Positions 5,831 to 13,879 of a stretch of DNA of 41,424 bases are shown piece after piece; within the stretch, counting starts at the first letter, position 1, and each line of letters opens with the position of its first letter. The position numbers and the translations under genes are program-made. Location: NCBI GenBank assembly GCA_008015325.1, contig SSFI01000013.1, positions 1-41,424 of the forward strand, written 5' to 3'. Below the pieces are notes generated by a model. The model did no database searches and had not been told where the DNA came from. It saw only the letters and a program-made list of their open reading frames with translations. The stretch is from Rheinheimera sp. Lineage in GTDB: Bacteria; Pseudomonadota; Gammaproteobacteria; Enterobacterales; Alteromonadaceae.

Positions 5831-7060
5831 ATGCCGTTTTATTCCGCTGATTTTATTAAAGAAATGCCTAAGTCTGATTTACACCTGCATCTGGATGGCA
5901 GTTTGCGGCTGGAGTCTTTGATTGAAATGGCACAGCGCAGTAAGCTGGTGTTGCCATCGAATACCGTCGAAGGCATGAAAGAGCTGGTGTTTAAAGAGCG
6001 CTACAACAACTTAGGCGAATACCTGCATGGTTTTCAGTACACTTGCGGTGTGCTGCGCGACCTGGAGAATCTGGAACAGGCAGCCTACGAACTGGCGCTG
6101 GATAATCAGGCGGAAGGCGTCAATTACATCGAAGTACGGTTTGCACCGCAGTTATTGATGGACCCGGCGGCCGGTATCGATTTCGACCGTATTATGCATA
6201 CGGTTAACAATGGCTTGAAGCGCGCCATGCATGAATACAATGCGCATGATCAGGTCCAGCTCGGATATCGACCGCCATTTGCCTACGGCATTATTAACTG
6301 TGCGATGCGGATGTTTTCCGGCAAAGGTTTTTCACCTTATTACACCAATTTATTTCAGCTGATGCGCGATTTTGATCCGATGCAGGTGATCAAACTGGCG
6401 GCGATGGAACTGGTGCGCGCCAGCGTGCGGTTACGTGACGAAGCCGGCATTCCGATCGTCGCACTGGATTTGGCGGGGCAGGAATCCGGGTTTCCGGCGC
6501 ACAATTTTAAAGAAGTGTACGAATACGCCCACCAGCATTTTTTGCTGAAAACTTTACATGCCGGCGAAGCATACGGCGCTGAATCGGTGTTTGAAGCCAT
6601 CACCGAATGTTATGCCGACCGGATTGGCCACGGCTATTCGATGTTTATTCCGGAGATGATTAAAGATCCGGCCATCACGGATAAACAGAAATATATCAAA
6701 GAGCTGGCGTCCTACATTGCCGATAAACGTATCGCGATTGAAGTCTGCCTGACCTCAAATTTACAGACCAATCCGGCAATCACCGATATCAAACAACATA
6801 AGTTTAAAGACATGCTGGAAAATCGCATCGCCACCGTGATTTGTACCGACAACCGCCTGGTGTCGAATACCACGGTGAGCCGGGAATATCAGCTGGCGGT
6901 GGACAACTTTGATATCCCGCTAAAACGCTTAAAAGACATCGTGGCGTACGGCTTTAAAAAGAGTTTTTTCCCGGGCAGTTATGTGGAAAAACGTGAATAT
7001 GCCAAGCAATGCCTGAACTATTTCGATGTGATTTCCCGCAAATACGGTTTTATTAATTAA
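5831..7060 (+). CDS. adenosine deaminase family protein
   Basis: Zn-dependent amidohydrolase-superfamily protein, probably deaminating adenosine or a related purine in the cytoplasm. It is 409 residues, longer than classical bacterial Add (about 333). The extra length includes a segment near residues 140-185 containing YRPPFAYG. Metal and catalytic motifs are present: H18-L-H20 in SDLHLHLDGS, H243-A-G-E246, IGHG, and T339-D340-N341-R342, where many Add proteins have TDDP. TDNR occurs in some bacterial Add-like groups, so it need not mean loss of activity, but substrate identity is uncertain. AGGGA precedes the ATG by 7 bases. Monocistronic, closed by its own terminator. Confidence 0.85.
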   Translation: MPFYSADFIKEMPKSDLHLHLDGSLRLESLIEMAQRSKLVLPSNTVEGMKELVFKERYNNLGEYLHGFQYTCGVLRDLENLEQAAYELALDNQAEGVNYIEVRFAPQLLMDPAAGIDFDRIMHTVNNGLKRAMHEYNAHDQVQLGYRPPFAYGIINCAMRMFSGKGFSPYYTNLFQLMRDFDPMQVIKLAAMELVRASVRLRDEAGIPIVALDLAGQESGFPAHNFKEVYEYAHQHFLLKTLHAGEAYGAESVFEAITECYADRIGHGYSMFIPEMIKDPAITDKQKYIKELASYIADKRIAIEVCLTSNLQTNPAITDIKQHKFKDMLENRIATVICTDNRLVSNTTVSREYQLAVDNFDIPLKRLKDIVAYGFKKSFFPGSYVEKREYAKQCLNYFDVISRKYGFIN

Positions 7061-7080
7061 GCGGTCTGTGTTGACCTGCA

Positions 7081-7104
7081 AAAGCGCCTGCCGGCGCTTT
7101 TTTG
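7081..7104 (+). terminator. terminator of the adenosine deaminase gene
   Basis: AAAAGCGCC-TGCC-GGCGCTTTTTT: perfect stem, four-base loop and T run, 20 bases after the stop codon. Confidence 0.88.
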
Positions 7105-7248
7105 CTTTTCGCAGCCTGAGGCTTTTGCAGTGGACTTGTCGTAAATCTTGCTGTGGCCTGACTTCAGCTGAAAATTGGGAGGTTTAACTTTTATTTAAGT
7201 TATTGAATTAAAATTATTTTATTGATTTTTTCTGTGGGGCGCTAAAAC

Positions 7249-7331
7249 TGTCGCAAAAAAGATACATGCTAAGTAATTGATTTTTAAGTATAAAATATTT
7301 ATCTGCTTTTGGCTGTCGCTATTTAGCAACA
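7249..7331 (+). promoter_or_regulatory. two GlrR-like upstream activator sites (TGTC-N10-RACA type)
   Basis: TGTCGCAAAAAAGATACA (7249-7266) and TGTCGCTATTTAGCAACA (7314-7331) each match the enterobacterial GlrR/QseF site TGTC-N10-GACA with one change in the second half. The two share TGTCGC at the left and are 65 bp apart centre to centre, about six helical turns. They lie 110-190 bp ahead of the sigma-54 promoter at 7428, the usual distance for an enhancer-binding protein. GlrR itself is encoded at 12515-13879. The functional link is inference. Confidence 0.5.
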
Positions 7332-7427
7332 GATCCTGTGATCCTCTTGCCGTCATTCTTATTGTTTTGGTACTTTTTAAGTAATTAAATTTATTAAAAA
7401 CAATAATTTACGAGTTACCTTTTAAGT

Positions 7428-7443
7428 TGGCACACCAACTGCA
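7428..7443 (+). promoter_or_regulatory. sigma-54 promoter (-24/-12)
   Basis: TGGCACACCAACTGCA matches TGGCACR-N4-TTGCW except for one base (CTGC for TTGC). The invariant GG (7429-7430) and GC (7441-7442) are exactly 10 bases apart. Predicted start of transcription is near 7454, giving a 5' UTR of about 115 bases before the small membrane protein at 7569. Confidence 0.68.
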
Positions 7444-7459
7444 TATAACTTATCAAGCA

Positions 7460-7506
7460 GGTAAATAACGAAAGTGATACAGCGAGTTCCACTTCCGTTT
7501 TTTACC
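7460..7506 (+). repeat. large imperfect inverted repeat in the 5' UTR
   Basis: GGTAAATAACGAAAGTG (7460-7476) and CACTTCCGTTTTTTACC (7490-7506) pair at 15 of 17 positions around a 13-base loop. It begins within a few bases of the predicted sigma-54 transcript start, so the RNA would carry a long 5' hairpin, perhaps for stability or control. It lacks a terminal T run and is not a terminator. A second short CCGG/CCGG hairpin lies just before the ribosome site. Confidence 0.6.
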
Positions 7507-7568
7507 TGAAACCCAAGGTAATCACAGTTTAAGTTCCGGCAAAGTCCGGTGATGTAATGAGGTGTAAG

Positions 7569-7763
7569 ATGGACACATTTTTAATCGCAGCAGCAGCTTT
7601 CTTCGTGGTTAATGCTTTTGTGTTTGTAACTTATCTGCGCAAGATTGACCTGAACGGTGAAGCAGTGCGCAAACTGGAAAAAGCCCAGTTTACTGATGCT
7701 TACAACCGTCAAGCCGCAAAAGCACGTAAAGCCCGCGCTGCTGGTGTTGCAGCTAACGCCTAA
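7569..7763 (+). CDS. small single-pass membrane protein, unknown function
   Basis: A 64-residue protein beginning MDTFLIAAAAFFVVN. Residues 4-24 form one hydrophobic membrane segment; the rest is short, basic and alanine-rich (KARKARAAG near the end), probably cytoplasmic. An in-frame ATG at 7557 would add four residues, but a GAGGTG Shine-Dalgarno sits 5 bases before the 7569 ATG, so that start is preferred. No family recognised. It has its own sigma-54 promoter, two activator-like sites, a structured 5' UTR and a strong terminator, making it a dedicated single-gene transcription unit. A stress-response small membrane protein is a possibility, not shown. Confidence 0.75.
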   Translation: MDTFLIAAAAFFVVNAFVFVTYLRKIDLNGEAVRKLEKAQFTDAYNRQAAKARKARAAGVAANA

Positions 7764-7778
7764 GCGCTAATGAATTTG

Positions 7779-7808
7779 AAAAAACCGGTCAGCTGACCGG
7801 TTTTTTTT
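7779..7808 (+). terminator. strong terminator after the small membrane protein
   Basis: AAAAAACCGGTCAGCTGACCGGTTTTTTTT: a perfect palindrome with a T run on both strands, 15 bases after the stop codon. Confidence 0.93.
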
Positions 7809-7916
7809 CGCCCGTAATTTGAACTGCTCATACCAAAAATCTTGCTCTGCAGCTGCAGACTGCCTACTTGTGTGATAAGGTGATAATTATTTGTAAATAA
7901 ATATGGAGGTTTTGTG

Positions 7917-9932
7917 ATGCGGCGATCAGAGCTCCGCTGGTTACGTCAGTCCGGCTTTTTCCTGTTCAGCGTCATTGGTCTGGCGGGTTGCGGCGGTGGC
8001 GGCTCAGACAGTCCGCCTGCTCCACAACCGACACCACAAAATGTCGCGCCGGTGCCTGGCAGCAATACCTTTCAGTTAAACGAAGACAGCAGCCTGCAGG
8101 CGCAACTGGGTGCTACCGACGCGGATAATGATGCGCTCAGTTATCAGCTGACCAGCCAAACTCAGGCGCAAGGTGTCGTCACTTTGCAAAATGATGGTCG
8201 TTTCACTTATCAGCCCAGCGCTAATTTTGCCGGCGAAGCCAGTTTTACCTTTACCGTCAGTGACGGGAAAAATCCGCCGGTCGCCGGCAATGCCAAACTC
8301 ACAGTACAAAATATCAATGACCTGCCGCAGGCCGCGCTACAACAATTTGCCGGCGTTGAAGATACAGCGGCGACCTTTCAGCTCAAAGCAACGGATGTCG
8401 ATCAGGACACACTGACGTTCAGCTTACAAAGCGTCAGTCCGGCCAATGCTGGCGTGACCGTCAGCCCGGCCGGCAGTATCAGTCTGAAACCAGCGGCAAA
8501 CTTCAATGGCAAAATCGCGCTGCAGTTACAGGTGACAGACGGGAAGTCTGCGGCCGTGGCTTTTGTCGCAGACATTACGCTGACCGCGGTGAATGATGCG
8601 CCTGTACTGACCGTCACGCCATTACCGGCGCTGCTGGACGCAGGTCAGAGCTACACGCTGACTTACACAGCTGAAGATGTGGATGGTGATGTGGTGACGG
8701 TCAGTAATGCGCAACCGGAACTGTTCCGGCTGGATCGCAGCCAGGCCAACGCCTCGCTGCAGGTGTTAGCGCGTACCGATGCCTTAGATACTGAACTGGT
8801 GCTGCAGGCCACAGATCCACAAGGCGCCACCACCCAATATAAACAGAAAGTGCTGCTGGCTATTCCGGCCAGCAATGGTATGGGCCGCACTATTGTTGGG
8901 CCTGTGCAAAGCAACCGGCTGAATCTGGTGATTGTCGGCGATGGTTTTACCGCGACAGAACAACAGAAATTACGTGATGCCGCAGTCAAGTTCAGTCAGG
9001 TATTTTTCACCAGTAAAGAAATCGGCACTCACCGCGACGGCTGGAGCCTGCATGTGCTGGATGCGGTCTCCGCGCAAAGTGGTGCCGACGACCCGTCGAC
9101 CAACACGCTGGTTGATACTTTGTTTGACGGTAATTTCGGTTGTGCCGGCATCGACCGTCTGTACTGCGTCAACAGCAGTAAAGTGTTTAATTACGTGTTC
9201 CAGCATTATCCGCAGTTTGATTTTGTGCTGGTCGCTGGCAACAGCACTAAATATGGCGGGGCTGGTGGCGCCATCTCGACTTTCACCCTGCATCAGAGCG
9301 CGACCGATGTAGCGATCCACGAGCTTGGCCATTCCTTCGCCCGTCTGGCCGATGAATACGTTGACGATGCCAATGCGCATTTGTATCTGCCGGGATATTG
9401 CGAATCCTGTTACGCCAACATTACCCAACTGACCGACTTAAGCCAGGTGAAATGGCGGCACTGGTTCAACGATCCGGCCAAAGTACCGACATTGCCGGGT
9501 CAGGCCGGGGTTGGTTTGTTTGAAGGTGGTTATTATCACAGCAAAGGTTTTTACCGGCCGAAGGACAATAGTTTTATGCTCGAATTAGGCAAGCCGGTCG
9601 GTGAAATCAACGGTGAAGCCTGGGTCAATCAGCTGTATCAGACCATCGGCATGTTTCACAGCCAACAGCCGCAGCAGTCGCAAGTGGTGCAAGCGAGAGG
9701 GCAGAGCCAACAGTTTGCGCTTAAGTTGTCCATCGGCAGTGCCCAGCAACAAGTGCAGTGGTGGTTAAACGGTCAGTTATTGCCACAGTTTGACAATCAA
9801 ACCAGCATCAGCTGTTGTCAGGACCAACAACAAAATTACCAGCTCAAAGCCGTGGTCACCGATATCAGCGGTTTAATCAAAGCGCCAGCGCTTGTCAGCA
9901 AAGAGGTTCAATGGCATGTTCAAATCCAATAA
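7917..9932 (+). CDS. lipoprotein M64-family (IgA peptidase-like) metallopeptidase with cadherin-like domains
   Basis: A 671-residue exported lipoprotein. The signal peptide ends in the lipobox LAGC with Cys25, followed by a GGGGSDSPP linker. Residues about 43-135, 136-228 and 229-318 are three cadherin/tandem-95-like beta domains, with the repeated DADND/DVDQD/DVDGD calcium-type signature and the FTYQPSANFAGEASFTFTV pattern. Residues about 325-625 resemble the M64 peptidase family: VIVGDGFTATEQQKLRDAA, the zinc site H468-E469-L-G-H472, then ADEYVDD. It should cleave proteins at the cell surface; substrate unknown. GGAGGT lies 6 bases before this ATG; the GTG at 7914 is too close to it. Its end overlaps the next gene. 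Confidence 0.85.
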   Translation: MRRSELRWLRQSGFFLFSVIGLAGCGGGGSDSPPAPQPTPQNVAPVPGSNTFQLNEDSSLQAQLGATDADNDALSYQLTSQTQAQGVVTLQNDGRFTYQPSANFAGEASFTFTVSDGKNPPVAGNAKLTVQNINDLPQAALQQFAGVEDTAATFQLKATDVDQDTLTFSLQSVSPANAGVTVSPAGSISLKPAANFNGKIALQLQVTDGKSAAVAFVADITLTAVNDAPVLTVTPLPALLDAGQSYTLTYTAEDVDGDVVTVSNAQPELFRLDRSQANASLQVLARTDALDTELVLQATDPQGATTQYKQKVLLAIPASNGMGRTIVGPVQSNRLNLVIVGDGFTATEQQKLRDAAVKFSQVFFTSKEIGTHRDGWSLHVLDAVSAQSGADDPSTNTLVDTLFDGNFGCAGIDRLYCVNSSKVFNYVFQHYPQFDFVLVAGNSTKYGGAGGAISTFTLHQSATDVAIHELGHSFARLADEYVDDANAHLYLPGYCESCYANITQLTDLSQVKWRHWFNDPAKVPTLPGQAGVGLFEGGYYHSKGFYRPKDNSFMLELGKPVGEINGEAWVNQLYQTIGMFHSQQPQQSQVVQARGQSQQFALKLSIGSAQQQVQWWLNGQLLPQFDNQTSISCCQDQQQNYQLKAVVTDISGLIKAPALVSKEVQWHVQIQ

Positions 9933-10392
9933 ATTCGTCGGCCTGTTCACTGTTGCTGTGCTGGCCGCCTGCTCAGCCGTACCTGGATTTGCCGCCGAAT
10001 TCTGGTTGGTGAAAGTGGCTTTTGATGCCAATGGTAGTGAAATTCAACAAGTGCAGCGGGTGCAGGTTGCGGACGGGCAGCGCAGGAACACGCAACTGAC
10101 ACATGCCGGCGCTATGACTGTCAGTGTGAGAAATGCCGACGGCAAAGTGCTGCAGCAAGTGTCCATCGAAGACCCCAGAGTGATCCGGGTGCCGATGTTG
10201 CCGGGCTCAGCTCAAGGGCACCAGTTTGTGGTGCGGGATGAAGGCGATTTTATGCTGGTGCTGAGTGCACAACCGGAAGCTAGTCTGTTACAGCTGCAAT
10301 GGGCCGAAACACCGGGCCAGCCGGTGCTGCCAGACAGCCCGCAGCAACAACTCTCGTTACAGCAATTTGCCACTGAGCTGCAGTTAAAATAA
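9916..10392 (+). CDS. exported protein of unknown function, coupled to the M64 peptidase
   Basis: 158 residues, starting MFKSNKFVGLFTVAVLAACS. The N-terminus is a signal peptide that could be processed either as a lipoprotein (LAAC, Cys19) or by signal peptidase I after GFAA. The mature part is soluble, beta-rich in appearance and acidic; I recognise no family. Its start lies 17 bases inside the peptidase gene, with AAGAGG as ribosome site, so the two are co-translated. That suggests a partner, chaperone or inhibitor of the peptidase (inference from position). No terminator is evident in the 127 bases before glrK. Confidence 0.72.
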   Translation: MFKSNKFVGLFTVAVLAACSAVPGFAAEFWLVKVAFDANGSEIQQVQRVQVADGQRRNTQLTHAGAMTVSVRNADGKVLQQVSIEDPRVIRVPMLPGSAQGHQFVVRDEGDFMLVLSAQPEASLLQLQWAETPGQPVLPDSPQQQLSLQQFATELQLK

Positions 10393-10519: not shown

Positions 10520-11932
10520 ATGCGAAGTCCTATCCAGCCGGCCTCATTGCGGCAGTTTATTTTATTAAGCTTTTTTCTGGCGCTGATCCCGCTGGCGGTG
10601 TTGCTGTGGCAAAGTAACAGCGCGCTGTCTGATGTCAGCCGTTTTGCCGTCGCGGAAGCAGAATCTTCAGTCGACAGTGTGAAACGGGCGGAGAACATGC
10701 AAAATCTGGTGATCGATATTGAACGGGCGGTGCGTCAGTTCGGTATTTTACGCACCGATTCGTTAAGTACGCTGGCCACCACGCATTTGCTGAACTACCA
10801 GCAGATGCTGCAGCAGGTTTGCCTGGATTTAGACGCACCTTTGCTGTGTCAGGCGCAGGCGGCGCAGGTGACGACCTTACTGCAGAATTTTCTGCATGCC
10901 AGCAATGAAGAACTTTCCCCAACCTTACAGACGCTGCGCCAGCAGCAACAGCAGCTGACGGAGCAAATCTGGCAACGGCTGGAACAGCGTTTACAGACGC
11001 AGCAGAGTTTTGTCGTCGATGCACAAAACCAGCTGGCCTGGCAGTCTGTGACCTTAGTGCTGCTGACTTTGTTACTGGTGCTGTGGGCACAGGCGCGCAT
11101 CGCCTCACCGATTAAACAGCTCGATACCATGATCCGGTCTATCGGTCAGGCCAGTCACCATTTTCCGCACGAACAAGTGGTGGGGCCGCGTGAGCTGACT
11201 GAACTCGGCGAGCAATTACGCTGGCTGGCGTCGCGCTTACAGCAACTGGAAGCCTTAAGGCTGATTTTATTACGCCACGCCTCCCATGAACTGAAAACGC
11301 CGTTGTCCAGTATCAAAGAAGGCTGTGCTTTGCTCAGTGAGCAGCTGGTGGGGCCACTCAACAGCCAGCAAATGGAAGTGGTGACTTTGCTCAACGGCAG
11401 TGCAGATCGGCTCAGTCAGCTGACTGAACAGCTGCTGGACTACAACCGCCTGTTGCAACAAGCCAAACCGGAATTTGCCTGGCATGACAGCCAGCAGCTG
11501 CTCGACAGTTGTTTCGCCGACCATGCTTTGTCGTTGCAACAACGCCGGCAGTTCATCCAGCTGGACTGTCAGCTGCCGCGTATCTATACCGATGCCATGT
11601 TGTTTCGGCGTATTCTGGATAATCTGATCAACAACGCTCAGGCCTATGGCGGCGACGGCAGCCCGGTGTGGGTGGTGCTAAAACCACATGAGAAATTTAT
11701 GCTGCTGGATGTGGCGAATAACGGCACGCCGATCCCGGCGGAGCTCAGAGCCAAGCTGTTTGAGCCGTTTCAGCGCGGCAAAGCGCCGCGTTTTGATGCC
11801 GTGCAGGGCTCGGGCTTAGGCCTGTCGATCGTGTCTGACTGTGCAAGATTACTCGGCGGCATGGCCGAGATCATTGATGTGAATTATGCCGACGTGTGTA
11901 TCCGTGTGCGTTTGCCTATGGTAGAGGAATAA
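10520..11932 (+). CDS. glrK: sensor histidine kinase GlrK/QseE
   Basis: Inner-membrane sensor kinase of the GlrK-GlrR (QseE-QseF) system. 470 residues: membrane segments at about 13-30 and 173-194, with a helical periplasmic domain between them. HAMP follows, then HisKA with the phospho-accepting His256 in RHASHELKTPLSS. The ATPase domain has the N box in DNLINNAQAYGG, a DVANNGTPI segment and GSGLGLSIV. Assignment rests on the diagnostic gene order kinase - QseG-like lipoprotein - GlrR, spaced by 2 and 1 bases. In enterobacteria it responds to envelope conditions and phosphorylates GlrR. A TATGAT -10-like hexamer lies at 10457, but no convincing -35. Confidence 0.87.
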   Translation: MRSPIQPASLRQFILLSFFLALIPLAVLLWQSNSALSDVSRFAVAEAESSVDSVKRAENMQNLVIDIERAVRQFGILRTDSLSTLATTHLLNYQQMLQQVCLDLDAPLLCQAQAAQVTTLLQNFLHASNEELSPTLQTLRQQQQQLTEQIWQRLEQRLQTQQSFVVDAQNQLAWQSVTLVLLTLLLVLWAQARIASPIKQLDTMIRSIGQASHHFPHEQVVGPRELTELGEQLRWLASRLQQLEALRLILLRHASHELKTPLSSIKEGCALLSEQLVGPLNSQQMEVVTLLNGSADRLSQLTEQLLDYNRLLQQAKPEFAWHDSQQLLDSCFADHALSLQQRRQFIQLDCQLPRIYTDAMLFRRILDNLINNAQAYGGDGSPVWVVLKPHEKFMLLDVANNGTPIPAELRAKLFEPFQRGKAPRFDAVQGSGLGLSIVSDCARLLGGMAEIIDVNYADVCIRVRLPMVEE

Positions 11933-11934
11933 GT

Positions 11935-12513
11935 ATGAACAAGTGGACCCTGCTTGGGGTAACGCTGCTGGTAGCCGGTTGTCAGGGTGTGCCTGCACCA
12001 TTGCCGGTGATTTTAAAGCCCAAACCGGCACCGGAAAAAGTGGTTGAGCTGCCAAAAGAACAGCCGGCGCCGGTCAAGCCGCAACTGGCCTTGCAGGATG
12101 ATGTGGCGACACTGGGCGCCTGGCAGAATTTCCGTGCTGAAGTGCTGCAGATGAATGCCGCGCAGCGCGACGCCGTCAGCAAAACACTGGAAAAAACACC
12201 GGTGGGTGAATTGCAGGGACTGTTGCTGCGGTTGCATCCGGATACACCTTATGCCGTGCGCTTTCGTGCGCAGAATCAGCTCAGCGAACAGCTGAGTCGT
12301 TTACCGGCAGGCCTTGCTGCGTTACTGCGCTGGGATTACGCCTATAACCAGAAATTGCTGGAGTCTGAGTCTGCGGTCAAAGCGCTCGGCCGGCTCAATG
12401 GTCAGCAACAGGACAATCTGGAAAAATTGCAGAAGCAAAATGCCGATCTGCAGAAGAAAATCGAAGCGCTGACTCAAATCGAAGCCAAGCTGAACCAGTC
12501 AGGCGGAGGTTAA
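11935..12513 (+). CDS. qseG: QseG-like lipoprotein
   Basis: 192-residue lipoprotein encoded between the kinase and its regulator, the place of qseG in enterobacteria, where the product is an outer-membrane lipoprotein that modulates the kinase. Signal peptide MNKWTLLGVTLLVAGC with lipobox Cys16, a Pro/Lys-rich linker, a helical middle part, and a C-terminal coiled coil (about 160-188, LEKLQKQNADLQKKIEAL). Start chosen for GAGG just upstream and for the 2-base gap from the kinase stop; an upstream in-frame start lies inside glrK. Sequence similarity to E. coli QseG cannot be judged by eye, so the name rests on gene order and type. Confidence 0.78.
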   Translation: MNKWTLLGVTLLVAGCQGVPAPLPVILKPKPAPEKVVELPKEQPAPVKPQLALQDDVATLGAWQNFRAEVLQMNAAQRDAVSKTLEKTPVGELQGLLLRLHPDTPYAVRFRAQNQLSEQLSRLPAGLAALLRWDYAYNQKLLESESAVKALGRLNGQQQDNLEKLQKQNADLQKKIEALTQIEAKLNQSGGG

Positions 12514-12514
12514 C

Positions 12515-13879
12515 ATGCCAACAACTCCGACCGGCAACAATGCCCGTTTATTACTGGTCGACGATGACCCGAGTTTATTGCGGCTGATGACGTTGCGCCT
12601 CGAAGGCGAAGGTTATCAGGTGATCTCGGCCGATTGTGCTGAAACTGCCTTGACGCTGTTGGCCAAGCAGCCGGTTGACGTGGTGCTTAGCGACTTACGC
12701 ATGCCGGGCCTCGATGGCATGGCGCTGTTTGATGAAATTGCTAAACGCAGCCCGGGTTTACCGGTGGTGCTGATGACGGCACACGGGTCTATTCCGGAAG
12801 CCGTTGCTGCCACGCAGCGCGGCGTGTTTGGTTTTCTGACCAAGCCGCTGAATAACGTCGAACTGCGCGATATTCTGCAAAAAGCCGTGCATCAGTCGCA
12901 TGTGCCGAGCAAAGACAGCTGGCGTCAGGCCATTGTCACGCGCAGCAAAACCATGGAACAAGTGCTGGAGCAGGCGTACCGCGTGGCGCAGCGCGATGTC
13001 AGCGTGCTGATCACCGGCGCCAGCGGCACCGGCAAAGAGCTGCTGGCCAATGCCATTCACCTAGCGAGCCCACGCGCACGGCGCGCTTTTGTCGCGATCA
13101 ACTGTGGCGCTTTGCCTGAACATTTGCTCGAGTCCGAACTCTTTGGCCACGCCAAAGGCGCTTTTACCGGCGCGGTGACAGAACATGCCGGTTTATTCCG
13201 CGAGGCCGACGGCGGCACGCTGTTCCTTGATGAAATCGGCGATATGCCGCTGCCGCTGCAGGTTAAATTACTTCGCGCGCTGCAAGAGCGGCAAATCCGG
13301 CCGGTCGGCAGCGCTAAGTCGATTCCAATTGATGTGCGGGTGATTTCCGCTACGCACCGCGACCTGAAACAAGCGATGCAGGAGCAGAGTTTCCGCGAAG
13401 ACTTATATTACCGGCTCAATGTGGTCAATCTGCAGTTGCCGACCTTGCGGGAGCGCGCCGAAGATATTCCGCTTTTAGCCCGACATGTACTGCAGCAAAG
13501 CGCTGAGCGCCATGGTGTGCAGGTCAACCGGTTTTCCGAAGATGCGATGCAGGCTTTGGTCACAGCGCAGTGGCCTGGCAACGTGCGCCAGCTGGTCAAC
13601 GTGGTGGAGCAGTGCGTGGCGCTGACAAGTAACCCGGTGATTAGTCTGGCGCTGGTCAGTCAGGCGCTGGAACAAAACCGCAGCTTCTGGCCGACGCTGA
13701 GCGAAGCGCGTGACCAATTTGAGCGGCAATATCTGGTGCGGGTGCTGAAAATGGCCGAAGGCAATGTCACCCGTGCCGCTGAATTGGCCGGACGTAACAG
13801 AACTGATTTTCATAAGCTGCTGAAAAAGCATGAGTTAAGCGCAGCGCAGGTGTCTGAGCAAGGCGACGAACCTGAATAA
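12515..13879 (+). CDS. glrR: sigma-54-dependent response regulator GlrR/QseF
   Basis: Response regulator and enhancer-binding protein of 454 residues. The receiver domain (about 10-125) has acidic residues D16-D18, phospho-acceptor Asp60 in LSDLRMPG and Lys110. The AAA+ domain has Walker A GASGTGKE (168-175), the sigma-54 contact loop GAFTGA (215-220), a Walker B-type GGTLFLDEIGD, and arginine-finger region. A Fis-type helix-turn-helix ends the protein (GNVTRAAELAGRNRTDFHKL). In enterobacteria it activates glmY and rpoE from sigma-54 promoters through TGTC-N10-GACA sites; sites of that type lie at 7249-7331 here. GGAGG precedes the ATG by 7 bases. glnB, usual next gene in enterobacteria, is not present. 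Confidence 0.92.
   Translation: MPTTPTGNNARLLLVDDDPSLLRLMTLRLEGEGYQVISADCAETALTLLAKQPVDVVLSDLRMPGLDGMALFDEIAKRSPGLPVVLMTAHGSIPEAVAATQRGVFGFLTKPLNNVELRDILQKAVHQSHVPSKDSWRQAIVTRSKTMEQVLEQAYRVAQRDVSVLITGASGTGKELLANAIHLASPRARRAFVAINCGALPEHLLESELFGHAKGAFTGAVTEHAGLFREADGGTLFLDEIGDMPLPLQVKLLRALQERQIRPVGSAKSIPIDVRVISATHRDLKQAMQEQSFREDLYYRLNVVNLQLPTLRERAEDIPLLARHVLQQSAERHGVQVNRFSEDAMQALVTAQWPGNVRQLVNVVEQCVALTSNPVISLALVSQALEQNRSFWPTLSEARDQFERQYLVRVLKMAEGNVTRAAELAGRNRTDFHKLLKKHELSAAQVSEQGDEPE

Follow-up and report, generated by a model that had tools for sequence, protein, structure and literature searches.

A conserved putative sigma-54 promoter with paired GlrR-type sites precedes a gene for a small membrane protein near glrK in Rheinheimera

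The window analyzed here, a stretch of 41,424 nucleotides from a Rheinheimera genome, carries the genes of a GlrK-QseG-GlrR system on its forward strand: glrK (qseE, sensor kinase, 10520–11932), qseG (11935–12513) and glrR (qseF, 12515–13879). The first two are named by their position, as glrK encodes generic kinase domains, and qseG has a lipoprotein-like start and matches no family. The product of glrR is a sigma-54 activator with a GAFTGA motif, and is named after its best NCBIfam match, which at 708 bits lies below the curated cut-off of 763. About 2.8 kb before these genes, close to the 3 kb originally given, is a small gene with an elaborate upstream region. This unit is bordered by a terminator-like hairpin (7080–7101, forward strand, found by the terminator scan) located 3' of an adenosine-deaminase-family gene. 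Motif matching and conservation identify two GlrR/QseF-type sites, TGTCGCAAAAAAGATACA at 7249–7266 and, 65 bp from it, TGTCGCTATTTAGCAACA at 7314–7331, as well as a forward-strand sigma-54 −24/−12 element, TGGCACACCAACTGCA, at 7428–7443. An IHF-type site was found by motif match on the reverse strand at 7270–7282. The predicted transcription start at 7454 was placed 12 nt downstream of the C in the −12 GC. The remaining features, all on the forward strand, are a 5'-terminal stem-loop of the predicted transcript (7458–7508, from folding and alignment), a Shine-Dalgarno-like GAGGTG read directly at 7559–7564, and an open reading frame at 7569–7763, stop codon included, for a 64-residue membrane protein with one predicted helix.

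The palindrome AAAAAACCGGTCAGCTGACCGG and the eight T that follow it (7779–7808, forward strand) were read directly from the sequence and form a likely terminator. The original prediction had called this terminator strong; the terminator scan did not flag the palindrome and the T run, possibly owing to pairing of the A run with that T run. A scan of 7060–7930 found no sigma-70-like promoter. Two further coding regions, a gene encoding an M64-peptidase domain plus cadherin-like repeats (7914–9932) and a 166-aa open reading frame (9892–10392), separate the unit from glrK in the window. Promoter and glrK are 525 bp apart in genome G015, and the peptidase gene and its neighbor look like an insertion in the lineage of the window.

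The sigma-54 element has the GG-N10-GC spacing first reported for 7428–7443, and no other exact TGGCAC-N6-TGCA occurs in the window. With up to one mismatch allowed, the motif occurs 4 times in the window against 6.93 expected, which is not above chance, so that the weight of this element rests on its position and conservation. The two near-copies of TGTC-N10-GACA described upstream were likewise recovered; they are spaced by 65 bp and start 179 and 114 bp ahead of the −24 element. Each has one mismatch to TGTC-N10-GACA and none to the shorter pattern TGTN12ACA. Among 5000 dinucleotide shuffles of the region, three contained two TGTN12ACA sites and one contained a pair at 65 bp.

Conservation of the TGTC sites and the −24/−12 element beyond that of the surrounding DNA had been set beforehand as the check on the original prediction. 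We compared 21 Rheinheimera loci, and all of them keep the site pair at 65 bp, a TGGCAY-N6-TGCA element 177–179 bp from site 1, the hairpin and the protein, so that within the genus the prediction passed its check. Comparison of the two clades gives mean identities of 0.89 at site 1, 0.86 at site 2 and 0.75 at the promoter, as against 0.61 in the stretch separating the sites and 0.42 and 0.45 for the flanks. The outcome in the sister genera g18 and g43 was divided. All seven loci read there have the 65-bp pair and a TTGGC element, preserving the sites and the −24 part, but the GC at −12 is retained in just two of the seven. The exact IHF consensus, which we take to be WATCAANNNNTTR both for the call at 7270–7282 and for this count, is found in 18 of the 21 genus loci, including the window (shuffled mean 1.07, maximum 4). 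A TAAG-N3-TTGA-type element also recurs near the GlrR-type sites in the genus (7190–7400 in the window), with the exact IHF consensus in only some copies. At the level of sequence, this comparison establishes the architecture of 7249–7808, its conservation and its coding capacity.

Comparison also supports the coding of the proposed 64-residue product, with dN/dS values of 0.02–0.12 over the first 48 codons in nine pairs, indicating purifying selection. The protein has one hydrophobic stretch at residues 5–23 (top 19-residue Kyte-Doolittle mean 2.29). Past residue 23 there are ten lysine or arginine residues versus four aspartate or glutamate residues, which by the positive-inside rule puts the basic tail inside. 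These properties suggest an inner-membrane protein with a single helix and a basic tail on the cytoplasmic side. Eight residues are the same in all 15 aligned members: M1, D2, F11, N15, R24, N29, V33 and E37. The AlphaFold model, one continuous helix over residues 2–63 (mean pLDDT 84, pTM 0.42), adds little. No Pfam family matched the window protein, or the 15 aligned members at E-values up to 1. The best NCBIfam E-values were 0.068 and 0.093, both far short of the cut-off, and a search for relatives of solved structure found none (best E-value 2.4). EF-hand loops are absent from the membrane protein. The version in Rheinheimera texasensis DSM 17496 is 98% identical, differing in 1 of 64 residues, and the protein is present in 21 of 22 Rheinheimera genomes, the one without a match being G012, an assembly of 680 contigs. 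A profile search of the taxonomic family found it in 19 of 196 genomes and three of 52 genera (g1, which is Rheinheimera, g18 and g43). Applied to 369 genomes sampled across the class, the same search returned the window's own genome alone.

The place beside glrK was surveyed across the family with the GlrR model NF011695 at E-values of 1e-170 or better. GlrR was found in 100 of 147 family genomes, none of the matches reaching the curated cut-off, and we examined the upstream DNA of 60 of the 100, covering 38 genera. When products are classified by a simple motif rule, these 60 loci divide into 10 with the membrane protein, 22 with a co-directional gene for a secreted EF-hand-type protein, 16 with a divergent EF-hand-type gene (that of G022 being doubtful) and 12 with neither; four of the last group (G142, G089, G148 and G085) resemble EF-hand loci by eye, and the group also includes three genera whose small exported proteins are of another kind. 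An EF-hand gene lies beside glrK in 25 of the 38 sampled genera, or 26 with the doubtful one. Pfam confirmed EF-hands in all eight candidates submitted, of which seven belong to the family and one does not, and assigned two other small exported proteins to no family. At L107, L114 and L125, in three genera, small exported proteins that are not of EF-hand type stand behind the divergent promoter; of these, the one submitted to Pfam matched no family. The idea that the membrane protein and the EF-hand proteins are related through a common IDLN-like stretch was not supported (hhalign probability 1%).

The promoter design is shared more widely than the membrane protein. Among the 57 family loci outside the genus, a sigma-54-like element is accompanied at a suitable distance by at least two GlrR-like sites in 22 (shuffled mean 0.02) and by at least one in 29 (shuffled mean 1.05), while 28 have no such element with a site; because the promoter score was picked after inspection of the data, the 22/57 and 29/57 figures serve as a guide only. 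With two mismatches allowed per site and the other spacings in the same loci as the yardstick, a 65-bp pair occurs in nine of the 22 co-directional EF-hand loci and any other spacing in at most two. One of these nine, L098 (g44), shares the exact site 1 sequence of the window and has it before an EF-hand gene. Divergent loci mostly show a spacing of about 121 bp between their sites, which precede a sigma-54-like element on the minus strand. In ten of these loci, from many genera (L101, L102, L104, L105, L108, L111, L115–L117 and L121), the divergent EF-hand gene is followed on the minus strand by a conserved protein of about 110 residues, of the form RYIQxDDWIFEVKxVRAxR...GxPYSAIANxxxNGDxAYIDGLxT. 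L119, L120 and L123 have two tandem EF-hand genes behind the divergent promoter, which suggests gene duplication.

In the class-wide sample, GlrR was detected in 84 of 369 genomes (E-value 1e-165 or better). Forty upstream regions were examined and a glrK-like open reading frame was recognized in 38 of them. Two GlrR-like sites with a sigma-54-like element were present in four of the 38 (G480, G264, G405 and G353); the class as a whole therefore does not share the arrangement. G480 is of the enterobacterial type, as judged from its GlrR score over the cut-off, and G353 is divergent and lacks a clear product. The locus in G405 (L193) has sites 66 bp apart and a sigma-54-like element followed by an EF-hand protein; that in G264 (L182) has sites 68 bp apart and a sigma-54-like element followed by a possible small proline-rich lipoprotein.

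For GlrK, a quick tree of 58 rows, from which L124 and L126 had been excluded beforehand, groups the ten membrane-type loci as one clade (support 100) beside g32 and g24 (88) and g47 (90), all of them EF-hand loci. The membrane type is placed among EF-hand loci on the strength of the forks at 88 and 90 in this quick tree. Since EF-hand genes are found on both sides of the tree, the simplest reading is that the Rheinheimera lineage exchanged the coding part a single time: the gene behind the old promoter would have been replaced once by that of the membrane protein, and the design of this GlrR promoter seems to have survived the change of gene. We tentatively extend this to a wider proposal, which we consider somewhat less probable than its opposite, that GlrK-QseG-GlrR has a conserved output position with an exchangeable small envelope product under one ancestral GlrR/IHF/sigma-54 promoter: GlmY RNA in enterobacteria, a secreted EF-hand protein in many genera of the present family, a one-helix membrane protein in Rheinheimera and its two sister genera, and perhaps a small lipoprotein in other lineages. 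If true, the EF-hand version would connect what the system senses with divalent cations or with the envelope charge that they stabilize.

We interpret 7249–7808 as a self-contained output unit of the neighboring GlrK-QseG-GlrR system, with a probability of roughly 0.84, a figure that refers to the regulatory unit and not to the role of the protein. Phosphorylated GlrR would bind both TGTN12ACA sites, IHF would bend the DNA, and GlrR would then open RNA polymerase-sigma-54 at 7428–7443; we infer that the promoter depends on both GlrR and RpoN. By eye, an rpoN-like C-terminus adjoins rapZ in this genome. The RNA would begin near 7454 with its 5' stem-loop and end near 7808, and this short mRNA would yield the 64-residue inner-membrane protein. 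That the protein acts as an envelope effector, produced when GlrK senses envelope trouble, has about an even chance of being right. The other role to consider is that of a membrane feedback partner of GlrK, as small proteins serve for some other kinases; we rank it as less likely. The gene adjoins the operon, and the product would reside in the membrane of the kinase. In addition, one accessory protein of the kinase is already known, QseG, which activates QseE through direct contact with R70 and R73 of QseE at the interface (PMC12691602), and by eye R69 and R72 of the window GlrK may be in an equivalent place. An EF-hand protein and a membrane helix behind promoters of the same design are, however, hard to fit to one required kinase contact, and the occurrence of unrelated products behind one promoter design favors an envelope effector over an obligatory kinase partner.

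At the 5' end of the predicted transcript, the onset of the stem follows +1 by 4 nt in 20 of the 21 genus loci and by 3 nt in the other, which fits a start near 7454. The large 5' hairpin anticipated for this transcript is evident at 7458–7508. The untranslated region in the window folds with z = −2.65, and three of 200 shuffles fold equally well. In an alignment of nine distinct stem sequences, 93.3% of cells pair. Among the 20 pairs, 4 have changed on both sides, 2 deviate only by unpaired cells and 14 are invariant. The same number of two-sided pairs was obtained in 139 of 500 control shuffles and the covariation score in none of the 500; the two-sided changes divide the two clades and therefore represent few events. 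By eye, a stem of different sequence is present in four g18 loci, and the stem is absent in G144 and G200 of the same genus and in both g43 loci. A stem at the 5' end can protect an RNA, as in the ompA leader, and by this analogy the stem-loop here most likely shields the transcript from 5'-end-dependent decay.

Could the RNA itself be the product, with the stem-loop acting as a GlmY-like regulatory RNA, for instance a RapZ decoy, and the open reading frame secondary? The covariation (two-sided changes in 4 of 20 pairs) would suit such a molecule, as would the presence of rapZ, and the unit holds the place that glmY has in the E. coli account available from PMC6075780. The explanation is nevertheless improbable, given that the protein is under selection (dN/dS 0.02–0.12) and that the stem is missing from some sister-genus loci that retain the protein. 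Neither the window nor ten loci gave an Rfam gathering match to the GlmY/GlmZ family, a test that may miss members since the enterobacterial-type locus L161 likewise has none.

A regulatory unit under GlrR also has to be set against the rest of the genome. The pattern TGGCAY-N6-TGCW occurs 69 times in the window's genome, versus 10 times for the reversed pattern. We scanned for GlrR-like sites with at most one mismatch within 260 bp upstream of the other 68, a pattern that weaker promoters escape, and found one site at four of them and two at none. With 4 of 68 other promoter-like sites having one GlrR-like site, single sites carry little meaning. As a second GlrR target, rpoE was not supported. 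The 600 bp before it contain one GlrR-like site with one mismatch, 442 bp upstream, and another with two, and GG-N10-GC is found there as weak matches only. Use of the 7428–7443 promoter by another sigma-54 activator is improbable, for although TGTC-type palindromes are simple, GlrR binding here is a prediction and the genome has further activator candidates, the sites match the QseF consensus as given in the available text of PMC6075780, remain near glrK across genera, and are paired at 0 of the 68 other promoter-like sites.

Sigma-54 has been proposed to control the bacterial exterior (PMC3162934). An output unit of this kind would matter in several ways. A promoter of the same design that drives proteins from the place of glmY would part the wider role of the regulator from GlmY. 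The membrane helix and the EF-hand protein would be natural test outputs, and would provide a simple reporter in water bacteria for the stimulus search. The locus would also exemplify a regulatory region that outlives the gene it controls. Among the openly licensed papers that literature searches listed, none reports a small membrane protein or an EF-hand protein driven by GlrR in its title or abstract opening.

Among small membrane proteins, we take the sigma-54-dependent PspB type to be alike in size, in its single N-terminal helix and in its charged tail; the present protein differs from it in its neighborhood and in the lack of a Pfam match to it from the 15 aligned members at E-values up to 1. 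As described in the available part of PMC6075780, the chief known output of QseE/QseF (GlrK/GlrR) in E. coli is the GlmY RNA, the stimulus was unknown in 2018, and the second known QseF/sigma-54 target is rpoE P2, unlike the rpoE of the window's genome with its weak GG-N10-GC matches. In the same account, glmY lies directly upstream of qseEGF and its sigma-54 promoter is served by QseF at three TGTN12ACA sites together with IHF. For Proteus, PMC8745638 describes a single operon of glmY and qseEGF, with predictions of two sites for IHF and three for QseF. The window unit resembles the glmY promoter in its place upstream of qseEGF, its TGTN12ACA sites, its IHF-type site and its sigma-54 element. 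It differs in having two sites instead of three, no sigma-70-like promoter detected by the scan, an mRNA for a small protein as its product, and a peptidase-like gene and the 166-aa open reading frame before glrK. The EF-hand genes of the family differ in encoding a secreted EF-hand protein without detectable homology to the membrane protein and in being divergent in many genera, with a spacing of about 121 bp. They share with the window unit the place beside glrK, a small exported product and, in nine of the 22 co-directional loci, the pair of sites 65 bp apart.
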